Positions 21,962-51,185 of a DNA stretch of 64,000 nucleotides are shown piece by piece. The translations under genes were made by a program, and so were the position numbers. The notes below the pieces were generated by a model that saw only the letters and a list, made by a program, of their open reading frames with translations, searched no databases and was not told the DNA's origin. This stretch comes from Aromatoleum toluclasticum ATCC 700605 (GTDB lineage: Bacteria > Pseudomonadota > Gammaproteobacteria > Burkholderiales > Rhodocyclaceae). The stretch covers positions 186,001 through 250,000 of the forward strand of contig NZ_KB899494.1 of the NCBI RefSeq assembly GCF_000378245.1. Direction: 5' to 3'. The first letter of the stretch is position 1, and each line of letters begins with the position of its first letter.

Positions 21962-23377
21962 ATGGACGGTATCCGGAAGCCCTTCAACCTGCGCAAATGG
22001 TTTTCCATCGTCAGCCTGGCGGTGACCGGCGGGGCCGCCATCGTCTCGGGCGCGATCCTGTCGAACTTTTTCGTCACCGAAGCGATCAAGCGCGACGCGA
22101 TGCTGACGCGGCAGTTCATCCAGTCGATCGCCGAGATCGAGCTGCGTCATGCCCGTTTCGGTCCCGTCGGTGTGTCCTTCGGCGCCATCCTCGACGAACG
22201 CCTCTCGGCGCAGGATCTCGGCCTCGAGCCGGAAAACCTCGCGCGTGCGCGCCAGGAATTCTTCGATCACCTGCGCCAGATGCCCGAGGCGCTGCTCGCC
22301 ACCGTGTTCGCAACCGACGGCTACGTGATCTGGTCAACCAATCCGCTGTTGATAGGCAAGACGCTGCCCGACAACGACGAACTGGAGGAGGTCATCGAAC
22401 GCCGCGAGGCGGTCGCGGGAGGACACCTGAAGGGGACCGCCGGCTCGAAGATGGAGCAGCAGTTCATGCGCTATCCCGAGGACATCTATATCGAGAACTA
22501 CGTGCCCTTGTTCGACCGGGATGGCTCGGTGGCTTCGGTCGTCGAAATCTACAAGGAACCGCGCGAACTCATCTACTCGCTCAAGCGCGGCTACCTGCTG
22601 ATCTGGCTCGCTGCCTTCCTTTCGGGCGCGGCCGTGTACCTGTGTCTGCGCTGGATCATCATCCGCGCCGCCCGCCAGATCGACACCCAGCAGCGCGAAT
22701 TGGTCGAAAACAAGACCCTGGTCGCGCTCGGCGAAATGTCCTCGGCCGTCGCGCACGGCCTGCGCAACCCGCTTGCGTCGATCCGCTCCAGCGCCGAGGT
22801 CGCCCTCGAAGTCGCTGACCCGTCGACCGCGAAGAACCTCACAGACATCGTTACCCAGGTCGATCGGCTCTCAAAGTGGGTACGAGAATTGCTTCAATTT
22901 TCGAAGCCGATCAGCGACGAACGCGAGGCCGTGAAGATCGATTCGGCCCTGAACAACGCGCTGTCCACCTACGAGGTGCAGATCCACCGCGCCGGCATCG
23001 AAGTCGACTGGACGCCCGAGGCGGCGCCTGCGGTCGAGGTGCATGCGAACGGAGCGCTGCTCGAGCAAGTGCTGAACAGCGTGCTGTCCAATGCCATCGA
23101 AGCCATGCCGCGCGGCGGGCGCCTCGGCGTGTCGGTGGCGCCGCCGGAGCACGATCGGGTAACCATCGAGATTGTCGATACGGGCTGCGGGATGTCGGCG
23201 AAGCAGATCGAAAAGGTCTTCAAGCCTTTCTACACGACGAAACGCGGCGGGCTGGGTGTCGGTCTGGTGTTGGTAAAGCGGATAATGGAACGATTCGGTG
23301 GGAACGTCGTGCTGGACAGCAAGGAGCAGGCGGGAACCACCGTGCGTCTGACATTCAAGGTAGCGGAGCAGGAGTAA
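21962..23377 (+). CDS. membrane histidine kinase, NtrB/ZraS-like output
   Basis: A 471-residue sensor kinase. TM1 spans about 14-36, an extracytoplasmic sensor of about 170 residues follows (with [17 protein letters not shown] and [22 protein letters not shown], a double-Cache-like look), and TM2 spans about 210-232. A short linker then leads straight to the H-box [19 protein letters not shown] (His265), with no HAMP or PAS domain evident. The catalytic domain has the N-box [14 protein letters not shown]1 DTGCGMS, F-box [11 protein letters not shown] and G2 [13 protein letters not shown]. The kinase fits partners of NtrC-type regulators, and the next gene, 4 nt away, is one. ATG 21962 is preceded only by a distant GTGGAG. 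The stimulus is unknown; context suggests a metal or redox signal. Confidence 0.88.
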
Positions 23378-23381
23378 GGAA

Positions 23382-24794
23382 ATGCCAAACACGATCCTGG
23401 TCGTCGAGGACGACGAGATCCTGGGCGACAACATTTGTACCAGCCTCAAGCGCAATGGCTGGGATGCACAGCTGGCTGGCTCTTCGGAAGAGGCTCTCAA
23501 GCTGTTGTCGATGCTGCACCCCGATGTCGTTCTCACCGACCTCAACCTGCCGGGCATCACCGGCATCGAGCTGATCGCCAAGGTGCGCGAAGCCGAGCCG
23601 GAAACGAAGGTCATTCTCATGACCGGGGACGGCAACGTGCAGCGTGCGGTCGAGGCGATGAAGGCTGGCGCCTACGACTACCTCACCAAGCCCCTCGTGC
23701 TGGCCGAGCTCAAGCTCCTCATCGAGCGCGCCCTCGAGGCGCGGCGCATGGAAAAGACGCTGTCCTTCTACCAGGAGCGGGAGACACGCGATGCCGGCGT
23801 GGCGGCGCTGATCGGCGCCTCGGGCCCGATGCAGGCGATGAAGAACATGATCCGCCAGCTTCTCGAGGCCGAGAAGCACATGCCCGTGAACGAGCTGCCC
23901 GTGGTCCTCATCAACGGCGAAACCGGCACCGGCAAGGAACTCGTCGCGCGTGCCCTGCACGTCGACGGCACGCGCAGCGCCGGCCCCTTCGTCGAAGTGA
24001 ACTGTGCCTCGATCCCGTCGCATCTGCTGGAGGCCGAGCTGTTCGGCCACGAGAAGGGCGCCTTCACCGACGCGCGCGACCGCCGCGCCGGCCTCGTCGA
24101 AGCGGCCGACGGCGGCACGCTCTTCCTCGACGAGATCGGCGAGATCGACCTCGCGCTGCAGGCCAAGCTGCTCAAGCTGCTCGAAGAGCGCACGATCCGG
24201 CGCCTCGGCTCGGTCAAGGAGATCAAGGTCAACCTGCGCATCATCAGCGCCACCAACCGCGACCTCGAAAAGATGGTGCGCGAAGGCAAGTTCCGCAGCG
24301 ACCTCTACTTCCGCCTGCGCATCATCACCGTCAAGGTGCCGCCGCTGCGCGACCGCGACGAAGACATCGTCACGCTGGCCAAGCACTACCTCGAACAGCA
24401 CGCCCGCCGCTACGGCAAGCCGGGCCTGTACTTCAACGACGACGCGTTCGCCGTGCTGAAGAGCTACGCCTGGCCGGGCAACGTGCGCGAACTGCGCAAC
24501 ATGCTCGAGCAGACGGTGCTGCTCGCCGCCGGCAAGGTCATCACGCCCAACCAGCTGGCGATCTGCCCGGGCCTGTACGGAAGCTGCGACCGCGACTTCC
24601 ACTCGCTCGACTCCTACTGCATGTCGGTGCCGTCTACGGGCGTCAGCGTCCCGGAAGTCGAGCGCGACCTCGTCATCAAGATGCTCGACAAGACCGACTG
24701 GAATGTCACCAAGTCCGCACGCCTGCTGGGCCTCACGCGCGACATGCTGCGCTACCGCATCGAGAAGCTGGGCCTGGAGCGTCCGGAGCGCTGA
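23382..24794 (+). CDS. NtrC-family sigma-54-dependent response regulator
   Basis: A 470-residue activator. Receiver domain 1-120 has phospho-acceptor Asp53 ([10 protein letters not shown]), acidic pocket VVEDDE and Lys in YLTKP. AAA+ domain about 145-385 has Walker A GETGTGKE near 179, Walker [11 protein letters not shown] and R-fingers in FRSDLYFRL. The sigma-54-contacting loop reads GAFTDA (226-231) instead of GAFTGA. The C-terminal Fis-type HTH is in [26 protein letters not shown]. It is translated 4 nt after its kinase and followed by a strong terminator. The surrounding sigma-54-type promoters and shared palindromes make it the probable master regulator of the 21-51 kb island. Confidence 0.92.
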
Positions 24795-24824
24795 CGGGAA
24801 GGAATACGGGAAGGGAGGGAGAGG

Positions 24825-24852
24825 GGGCGCGGCGCAAGCCGCGCCCTTTTTT
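24825..24852 (+). terminator. rho-independent terminator after the response-regulator gene
   Basis: Perfect 9-bp GC stem GGGCGCGGC/GCCGCGCCC (24825-24833, 24838-24846), loop GCAA and six T. It ends the kinase-regulator transcript and abuts the stop codon of the convergent gspF gene. Confidence 0.9.
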
Positions 24853-50155: not shown

Positions 50156-50163
50156 GGCCTGCG

Positions 50164-50550
50164 ATGGATACCCCGTACAAAACCCGCCCCGGCTTCACGC
50201 TGATCGAACTGCTGGTCGTGCTGGCCATCATCGCGACCCTGCTCGCGATCGCCGCGCCGCGCTACTTCGGCAGCCTGGAGAAGTCCGAGGACACCGCGCT
50301 GCGCCAGACCCTCGCGGTGATGCGCGACGCGCTTGACCACCACTACGGCGACACCGGCGCCTATCCCGACTCGCTGCAGGCGCTCGTGGACAAGCGCTAC
50401 CTGCGCAGCGTCCCGACCGACCCGATCACGCAGCGCAACGACAGTTGGGTGATCGTGCCCCCGCAGGGCGGGGCGAGCGGCGCGGTGGGCGACGTGCGCA
50501 GCGGCGCCGAGGGCAACGCGCGCGACGGGACGCCTTACGCGGAGTGGTAG
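50164..50550 (+). CDS. second GspG/GspH-like pseudopilin
   Basis: A 128-residue pseudopilin: cleavage site TRPG|FTLIELLVVLAIIATLLAIAAP with Glu5, then RYFGSLEKSEDTALRQTLAVMRDALDHHYGDTGAYPDSLQALVDKRYLRSVPTDPIT, strongly GspG-like (compare LEKSE with the QLGKSE of the 26-kb GspG). The C-terminus is short and Gly-rich. ATG 50164 is 8 nt after the previous stop. Confidence 0.87.
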   Translation: MDTPYKTRPGFTLIELLVVLAIIATLLAIAAPRYFGSLEKSEDTALRQTLAVMRDALDHHYGDTGAYPDSLQALVDKRYLRSVPTDPITQRNDSWVIVPPQGGASGAVGDVRSGAEGNARDGTPYAEW

Positions 50551-50552
50551 CG

Positions 50553-51185
50553 GTGGCGGTCGATGTGCGAGCTCACGCACCCGAGGGCGCACGCGAGCGG
50601 GGCTTCACTTTCATCGGCGTGCTGGTGCTGGTCGTGCTGATGACGCTGGCGCTGGTGGGCACCGCGCAGCTGTGGTCCACGGCCAGCCTGCGCGCCCGTG
50701 AGCGCGAGCTGCTGTGGGTCGGCTCGCAGTACGCGCGTGCGCTGCGCCTTTACTACGAGAACTCGCCGGAGGTGAAGCGCTTCCCGCAGCGCCTGGATGA
50801 TCTGCTCACCGACCAGCGCAGTCCGACCTCGCGCCACTACCTGCGCCGCCTGTACGCCGATCCCATCCTGCGCAGCACCGACTGGGGGCTGATCCGCGGT
50901 GCGGACGGCGGCATCATCGGCGTCTTCAGCCAGTCGCGCGACGCGCCGCTCAAACGCGGCCGCTTCCCGCCCGAGTGGGCGGAATTCGAAGGCATGGAAA
51001 GCTATGCCGACTGGCAGTTCGTCGCCGACCGCGCCTTCAGCACCACGGCCGCGCAGGCCGGCGCGAACGTCAGGCCGGGGCCCACGGGCACCGCGGCCCC
51101 CATCGACCCGCGCCAGGGCGTGATCGACGCCGCCCGCAACCCGCGCCCGGCGCCGACCGTGTCGCCCTTCCAGCTCACGCGCTGA
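50553..51185 (+). CDS. minor pseudopilin lacking Glu5
   Basis: A 210-residue last member of the operon. The processing site RERG|FTFIGVLVLVVLMTLALVGTAQLW has Gly where pilins carry Glu5, as seen in tip pseudopilins of the GspK kind, but it is shorter than GspK (about 300). The rest (RARERELLWVGSQYARALRLYYENSPEVKRFPQRLDDLLTDQRSPTSRHYLRRLYADPI) is like the family often labelled type II secretion pseudopilin in Rhodocyclales. GTG 50553 follows GGAG at 8 nt. Position and missing Glu suggest the tip of the pseudopilus. Confidence 0.78.
   Translation: MAVDVRAHAPEGARERGFTFIGVLVLVVLMTLALVGTAQLWSTASLRARERELLWVGSQYARALRLYYENSPEVKRFPQRLDDLLTDQRSPTSRHYLRRLYADPILRSTDWGLIRGADGGIIGVFSQSRDAPLKRGRFPPEWAEFEGMESYADWQFVADRAFSTTAAQAGANVRPGPTGTAAPIDPRQGVIDAARNPRPAPTVSPFQLTR

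Follow-up and report, generated by a model that had tools for sequence, protein, structure and literature searches.

What does a bacterium of the Rhodocyclaceae do with an island that joins a giant copper oxidase to a secretion machine? We are interested in positions 21962–51185 of a 64,000-nucleotide stretch of Aromatoleum toluclasticum ATCC 700605 (contig NZ_KB899494.1; the whole stretch is called the window here). An earlier reading of the bare sequence (the original prediction) had taken these 29 kb for a self-contained system of extracellular metal oxidation, probably of Mn(II), with its own secretion machine and under the control of sigma-54 and an NtrC-type regulator. Our analysis suggests that the island is the Rhodocyclales orthologue of the Mn(II) oxidation (mnx) system of Pseudomonas together with its type II secretion system (T2SS); we give this reading, mechanism included, a probability of about 0.8. 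We count the island as a member of the known system because of the match of its oxidase to the MnxG model, the order of its operon, the apparent orthology of its regulators to MnxS and MnxR, and the linkage of its T2SS. The locus bears on why bacteria oxidize Mn(II) and on how a copper enzyme of about 2000 residues reaches the cell surface. Since the genes for everything from signal sensing and activation to the oxidase, its supply of copper and secretion adjoin here in a genus other than Pseudomonas, and an activator site can be predicted, both the regulon and the secretion step become directly testable.

The oxidase and its operon

Gene content was checked by hidden Markov model searches (Pfam, NCBIfam) and by codon-position composition, which together confirm the gene list of the original prediction. 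The oxidase, a multicopper oxidase (MCO) of 1931 amino acids on the forward strand (ATG at 30291, stop at 36086), passes the NCBIfam equivalog model for MnxG (NF041487), scoring 3155.1 bits where 3100 are required and covering positions 1–1893 of the 1894 in the model. Four motifs (HxxHxH, HCHxxxHxxxxM, HxH and HxH) are invariant in an alignment of the window protein with four relatives, at H501/H504/H506, H555-C556-H557/H561/M566, H945/H947 and H1048/H1050; we take them to be the copper-ligand motifs. A search of the PDB finds only distant MCOs, the best of them the 1227-amino-acid MnxG 9bxa.

The oxidase and the five genes behind it have the same content and order as the six-gene mnxG operon of P. 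putida GB-1, which consists of mnxG, a YVTN propeller, two SCO genes, a binding protein with a cytochrome c domain, and SurA (PMC11409713, Table 4 as excerpted). All five lie on the forward strand. The YVTN beta-propeller gene (36340..38286) matches TIGR02276 and Cytochrom_D1, with TIGR03866 below its cut-off. Two SCO1/SenC copper chaperones follow (38349..39143 and 39031..39846; SCO1-SenC E-values 4.4e-17 and 1.3e-17), the true start of the second probably lying within its open reading frame (ORF). The fifth gene (39857..41452) encodes a MofC-like fusion of a cytochrome c, with one CxxCH motif, to a periplasmic binding protein (Cytochrom_C and Peripla_BP_6); a plasmid search with this fusion as query returned no full-length relative. 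A SurA-N chaperone (41484..42203; SurA_N_3, 1.2e-14) closes the operon.

To compare synteny, we collected loci from named genomes with an alignment of the MCO as query and kept the best 80 of 564 confirmed stretches. By title they comprise 3 loci from Aromatoleum/Azoarcus, 73 from Pseudomonas, 1 from Stutzerimonas, 1 labelled Pantoea, and 2 from one gammaproteobacterial metagenome-assembled genome (MAG). Identity to the window MCO is 87–89% in the Aromatoleum/Azoarcus loci and 61–68% in those from outside the Rhodocyclales. Among the 67 loci with at least 9.5 kb of downstream sequence, the propeller is present in 65, the first SCO gene, the second SCO gene and the fusion each in 64, and the SurA-N chaperone in 63. 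The T2SS gene for GspE follows in 64/67, and in 64/67 a receiver with a C-terminal extension separates gspE from the mnxG operon. On the other side, gspF and gspG lie upstream of mnxG in 40 of the 63 loci that extend 4.5 kb or more in that direction, and all nine tested genes are found in 37 of the 55 loci having both flanks. By the curated model and by synteny, the window MCO is an orthologue of MnxG, and on the same two grounds the earlier guess of Mn(II) as the metal is supported.

An MCO match occurs in 6/300 genomes of the host's order, its own genome counted, and in 9/16 genomes of the same genus, one of these (G337) by C-terminal fragments only. Two further genomes of the genus have defective frames: the MnxG frame at G342:C64:5262-11282 is broken by an in-frame stop, and that at G339:C1:231735-237658 is split in two. 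For all three, decay and assembly error are possible explanations. Elsewhere, MnxG genes stand in tandem, three of them in Pseudomonas jinjuensis and two in the gammaproteobacterial MAG (loci L096 and L101), and two genomes of the order (G183, G274) encode MCOs of 2436–2470 amino acids with propeller, SCO and MofC-like genes.

The linked secretion system

The T2SS genes are divided between two units. On the reverse strand lie gspF (24852..26042; T2SSF, 3.9e-57) and gspG, the gene for the major pseudopilin (26073..26519; TIGR01710, 191.3 bits against a cut-off of 88.85). A forward-strand operon begins behind the SurA-N gene with a stand-alone receiver protein (42421..42978; Response_reg, 5.1e-22), whose gene does not appear in the table of Mn-oxidation genes in PMC11409713, as excerpted. 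It continues with the GspE ATPase (43083..44807; T2SSE, 7.3e-124). Two genes stand between GspE and GspM. One occupies a GspL-like position (44791..45582, start approximate), is without a T2SS match in Pfam, has 42% identity to the gene at the same position in P. capeferrum (L159), and would by its order supply the cytoplasmic part; the other encodes a PilN/GspL periplasmic-domain protein (45582..46163; PilN, 5.4e-05). GspM (46150..46698; T2SSM_b, 2.4e-06) is followed by a GspC/PilP-like protein (46698..47303) without a Pfam match, named from its order and from its sequence, which has a transmembrane helix, a proline-rich linker and a C-terminal domain. The secretin GspD (47300..49675) has Secretin (4e-39), STN and Secretin_N domains, N-terminal TPR repeats, and a cohesin-like C-terminal domain (Pfam Cohesin, E 2.2e-07); the 605-amino-acid secretin ORF of P. 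capeferrum aligns only as far as residue 587 of the window's 791. Three pseudopilin-like genes end the operon (49685..50155, N_methyl 2.5e-07; 50164..50550, N_methyl 1.7e-08; 50553..51185). For the third, Pfam gives nothing significant (N_methyl comes closest, at E 0.52); it is 48–50% identical over about 171 amino acids to its counterparts in L158 and L159.

The gspG/gspF pair and the GspE/GspD/pseudopilin cluster are orthologous to the set at the Pseudomonas mnxG locus, and with GspE adjoining mnxG in 64/67 loci the claim of a linked T2SS stands. In another family of the same order, too, the T2SS and the oxidase operon adjoin (G148). The word “self-contained” in the original prediction is too strong, because no prepilin peptidase is found among the scanned genes of the window and the maturation of c-type cytochromes must come from elsewhere.

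The T2SS of the window seems to correspond to the system named Xcm in GB-1. A 2003 study by de Vrind reportedly found a Gsp-related pathway to be needed for secretion of the Mn-oxidizing factor of GB-1, and is said to describe csg-like genes around xcmX and a separate xcmT1/xcmS pair. The Xcm pathway reportedly shares with the window a two-gene gspG/gspF unit and, apart from it, a GspE/GspD cluster closed by three pseudopilin-like genes; GspF is then presumably XcmS-like, GspG XcmT1-like, the pseudopilins at 49685..50550 XcmT2/T3-like, and the product of 50553..51185 XcmX-like. In contrast to the Xcm locus as reportedly arranged and to P. capeferrum, where CsgE, CsgF and CsgG come after the pseudopilins, no curli (csg) genes are seen among the selected ORFs scanned downstream of the cluster in the window, which encode NfeD, Band_7 and other proteins.

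Secretins of this type occur in 111/300 genomes of the order (E <= 1e-60), and the host's own genome has a second one (G000:C9:209464-216791; 42% identity, T2SSF matches nearby), which probably belongs to a paralogous T2SS. Since such secretins are common and a second copy is present in the same genome, the type of machine is not peculiar to Mn oxidation; a dedicated role in it is possible for the copy at the mnx locus.

Regulators, sigma-54 sites and a phased palindrome

The island opens with a sensor histidine kinase (21962..23377, forward strand, ATG at 21962; HisKA and HATPase_c) and an NtrC-type regulator (23382..24794, forward strand; Response_reg, Sigma54_activat and HTH_8). In a forward search, the regulator has its best matches in six Pseudomonas genomes at 63–68% identity, with the next paralogues at no more than 46%; one genome, G306, encodes two such copies, at 68% and 65%. 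Pseudomonas genomes also contain kinases that share 48–53% identity with the one here. At locus L160, from P. wadenswilerensis, the MnxR match stands directly behind two kinases with 50% and 47% identity to that of the window; the published Pseudomonas pattern is mnxS1-mnxS2-mnxR, with a requirement for rpoN (excerpts of PMC11409713 and PMC8218464), and RpoN is required for Mn oxidation in Pseudomonas MS-1 (PMC11409713, as excerpted). No close second MnxS-type kinase is found in the host's own genome, where the next-best match has 38% identity. The window kinase and regulator thus look orthologous to MnxS and MnxR by sequence comparison. The arrangement in which they precede the oxidase within one block is shared, at such strength of match, by 6 of the 60 loci with at least 8.5 kb of upstream sequence.

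The original prediction had counted seven sigma-54-type promoters, a fair number if a generous one. Five forward-strand sites are good: 27587..27602 (exact TGGCAC-N5-TTGCT) before the small-protein gene sp1, 28531..28546 (exact TGGCACG-N4-TTGCT) before its paralogue sp2, 30152..30167 (TGGCACGACCGTTGCG) as the predicted promoter of mnxG, 36134..36149 as a possible internal site before the propeller gene, and 42343..42358 (TGGCACGAAGCATGCT) before the receiver-gspE operon. Three others are weaker (26641, forward; 26607 and 21699, reverse). The 5.9-Mb genome contains 13 exact sites (6 for the reversed-pattern control), two of which lie here, 944 bases apart. A scan of the whole window with a loose consensus gives 22 matches, not above chance (shuffle mean 26.3). 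For this reason we do not rely on promoter counts and rest the case for sigma-54 on the exact matches and on conservation in relatives.

Conservation at the mnxG promoter was measured in 79 loci: 77 relatives, the window, and the G148 locus (L002), with L043, L091 and L095 left out for having too little upstream DNA. The sigma-54 site scores at least 18 of 21.2 in 78/79 of them (shuffled control 3.8%). The receiver-gspE operon is preceded by a sigma-54-like site that reaches a score of 17.5 or more in 61/62 loci (control 9%) and of 19.4 or more in 21/62 (control 0.2%), and the sigma-54-like site of the transglycosylase gene (26641) is conserved in 46/46 loci (control 6%). Since these sites recur in 61/62 and 46/46 loci, predicted sigma-54 control common to the gspE operon and the transglycosylase gene is supported. 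The site before the propeller gene is local and weakly conserved (at least 17.5 in 21/68 loci, control 4%). Together, the putative MnxR orthologue and the conserved -24/-12 sites support the sigma-54/NtrC control named in the original prediction.

A palindrome, GGGGAA-N2-TTCCCC, accompanies these sites. The window has 8 matches with at most two mismatches, a number reached in 0/100 shuffles (mean 1.8), so that the repeated palindrome noted earlier is real. One copy, GGGGAATTTTCCCC at 26673..26686, lies between gspG and the gene for an SLT lytic transglycosylase (26716..27354, forward strand; SLT, 7.6e-30) and is the only exact match to GGGGAANNTTCCCC in the host's genome. Two copies with one mismatch each begin at 27360 and 27380 (span 27360..27393), another lies at 29852..29865 (GGGGACGATTCCCC), and one, GGGGAAATATCCCC at 30086..30099, stands 66 bp upstream of the mnxG -24 box, where we propose an upstream activating site for MnxR. 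Of the 10 palindromes with at most one mismatch in the genome, five fall in these 29 kb; an even spread would put 0.05 there.

The spacing to the mnxG promoter recurs in relatives. A palindrome lies 60–70 bp (start to start) upstream of the sigma-54 site in 60/79 loci at up to three mismatches (control 0.42%), in 54/79 at up to two (control 0/2370), and in 34/79 at up to one; the window is not among the 60, because a second palindrome at 300 bp ties in its row. A composite pattern of palindrome and sigma-54 site is matched once and only once in each of 25 whole genomes out of 26 (reversed control 0), P. putida 700447 being the one without, and all 25 matches sit 92–172 bp before the first aligned residue of MnxG; as these genomes were picked among those having an mnxG locus, the test speaks for uniqueness and not for a rate of discovery. 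Across 81 loci (1.9 Mb, window included) there are 57 palindromes with at most one mismatch, none of them inside the mapped genes of the block. Of these, 46 lie before the oxidase, in a stretch bordered on its left by the transglycosylase gene or by nothing mapped. In the gspG/transglycosylase region, a palindrome is found in 41/46 loci at up to three mismatches (control 12%) and in 22/46 at up to two (control 2%). Between the palindrome and the -24 box of mnxG, 47/78 loci have a match to the binding site of integration host factor (IHF) with at most one mismatch (control 8%), in agreement with the published prediction of both IHF and sigma-54 sites for mnxG in GB-1 (PMC11930936, as excerpted). 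We propose the palindrome as a putative MnxR site; MnxR probably controls mnxG and may also act on the gspG/transglycosylase region.

Mechanism, alternatives and further features

In the mechanism we propose, the MnxS-type kinase and MnxR would sense a signal, which is Mn in Pseudomonas. MnxR would bind the palindromes about 66 bp upstream of the -24/-12 element and, assisted by IHF bending, would activate sigma-54 RNA polymerase at mnxG; the transglycosylase gene, and the operon that runs from the receiver through gspE to the pseudopilins, would likewise be read by sigma-54. MnxG would be exported to the periplasm, where the two SCO proteins may load copper and the SurA-like chaperone may keep it foldable. 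The T2SS would then move the folded enzyme to the cell surface, the predicted site of Mn(II) oxidation in this host, with the propeller and the cytochrome-binding-protein fusion perhaps assisting in ligand or metal binding and in electron transfer. What the oxidase does, its two-component system and its dependence on rpoN are taken from work on Pseudomonas (excerpts of PMC11409713 and PMC3056050); our own comparison establishes the gene content, orthology and synteny of the island and the conservation of its promoter and palindrome. A broader proposal, that one regulon defined by the MnxR palindrome and sigma-54 makes both the giant Mn oxidase and its exporter, as a transferable beta- and gammaproteobacterial cassette including the receiver and, in the host genus, sp1 and sp2, seems to us evenly poised.

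Several observations weigh against orthology with the mnx system or against the control just described. The MnxG score exceeds its cut-off by 55 bits. The Pseudomonas loci are related and hence not independent. In three more distant long-MCO genomes of the same order (G015, G183, G274; G170 was left out, its contig being too short) the oxidase, propeller, SCO and fusion genes stand together with no T2SS gene found in the stretches around them, so that an MCO of this kind can do without a neighbouring T2SS. At G148 the T2SS is linked, yet the MCO there has neither the sigma-54 site nor the palindrome. The palindrome was first noticed by inspecting the window itself, is not in excess genome-wide (10 sites, 14 for the reversed pattern), and is found at the gspE operon in 4/62 loci at up to two mismatches (control 2%) and 34/62 at up to three (control 21%). 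Toward gspG, a sigma-54-like site is present in 7/46 loci only (control 4%).

The palindrome might instead be the site of another regulator, e.g., a metal or redox repressor; its weakness at the gspE operon and the putative nature of MnxR binding leave some room for this idea, which we consider doubtful. Most loci keep the palindrome at a fixed 64–67 bp from the -24 box, as is usual for upstream activating sites, and the activator known for the mnx system is of the sigma-54 type. The secretion machine, for its part, might be a general one that merely lies beside the mnx genes, with MnxG not its particular substrate. A secretin type found in 111 genomes of the order, as against 6 with the MCO, means that most copies go without MnxG, and gspF/gspG do not adjoin mnxG in 23/63 loci. 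Against this stand the linkage of GspE, the sigma-54 sites before both units, a second secretin on contig C9 that could perform general secretion, and the presence of secretion genes among the Mn-oxidation mutants of GB-1 (PMC3056050, as excerpted). We regard a mere neighbour as improbable.

A still smaller chance belongs to a homologous surface metal oxidoreductase built on the same MCO-SCO-cytochrome module and serving to oxidize Fe(II) or to pass electrons to minerals. The host genus lives anaerobically on aromatics, which would suit such a role. Such a role has been proposed for OmpB/OxpG of Geobacter sulfurreducens, reportedly the subject of a 2006 study by Mehta: by description it is alike in its multicopper protein, its atypical T2SS, and the SCO and MofC-like genes near ompB, and unlike in acting in mineral reduction. 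Clusters of the OmpB/MofA kind, with MCO, SCO and a cytochrome c-binding-protein gene, have been proposed to act in Fe redox chemistry (PMC5566968, as excerpted). Against this reading are the full-length match to the MnxG equivalog model and a neighbourhood that as a whole is that of Pseudomonas mnxG. The MofA-MofB-MofC system of Leptothrix discophora likewise has a large MCO, a folding helper and a gene for a cytochrome c-binding protein (MofC). However, MofB is a peptidylprolyl isomerase (excerpts of PMC5566968 and PMC8218464), whereas the window helper has SurA-N domains, and no linked T2SS is described there.

Orthology with the mnx system of Pseudomonas is our preferred reading. The six genes are in equal order in GB-1, with a sigma-54 site and an IHF-like site before mnxG, and identities between the window and Pseudomonas are 63–68% for MnxR and 61–65% for MnxG. 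The differences are that several Pseudomonas have two MnxS-type kinases and the window genome one, and that in the window, unlike GB-1, the regulator genes lie upstream of the oxidase within the same block. The original view that these genes had not been described as one unit does not hold as put, since the parts are known: earlier publications cover the need for rpoN, MnxS1/S2/R and the six genes of the mnxG operon (excerpts of PMC11409713 and PMC8218464), and the Gsp-related secretion pathway is reportedly the subject of the de Vrind study. Among the matches listed from the open-licence literature, we found neither a physical T2SS-mnxG linkage with co-control nor an MnxR binding site, and the literature matches listed include none on Mn oxidation in Azoarcus or Aromatoleum. 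The comparative evidence for control common to the mnx locus would be an addition to the known system.

The two small-protein genes between transglycosylase and oxidase, sp1 (27733..28098, 121 amino acids) and its paralogue sp2 (28678..29136), are on the forward strand; both products have a signal-peptide-like N-terminus, and the 5' ends of the genes form a 121-nt repeat that is 74% identical. The sp1 product has no Pfam or NCBIfam match. The sp1 gene occurs in the host's own genome and in 8/16 genomes of its genus and in 0/44 others; sp1 and sp2 seem confined to the host genus. As a strict companion of mnxG, sp1 is ruled out: among the 16 genomes, 9 have the MCO and 8 have sp1, with both in 6, the MCO alone in 3, and sp1 alone in 2.

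An antisense ORF at 45246-46352 overlaps the forward-strand GspL/PilN genes and is judged spurious, because homologues back the frames of the latter. An Rfam search gives no match inside the 29-kb island; elsewhere in the window, positions 58579-58700 match Bcj11, a family of Burkholderia small RNAs, with 71.9 bits against a gathering threshold of 49.

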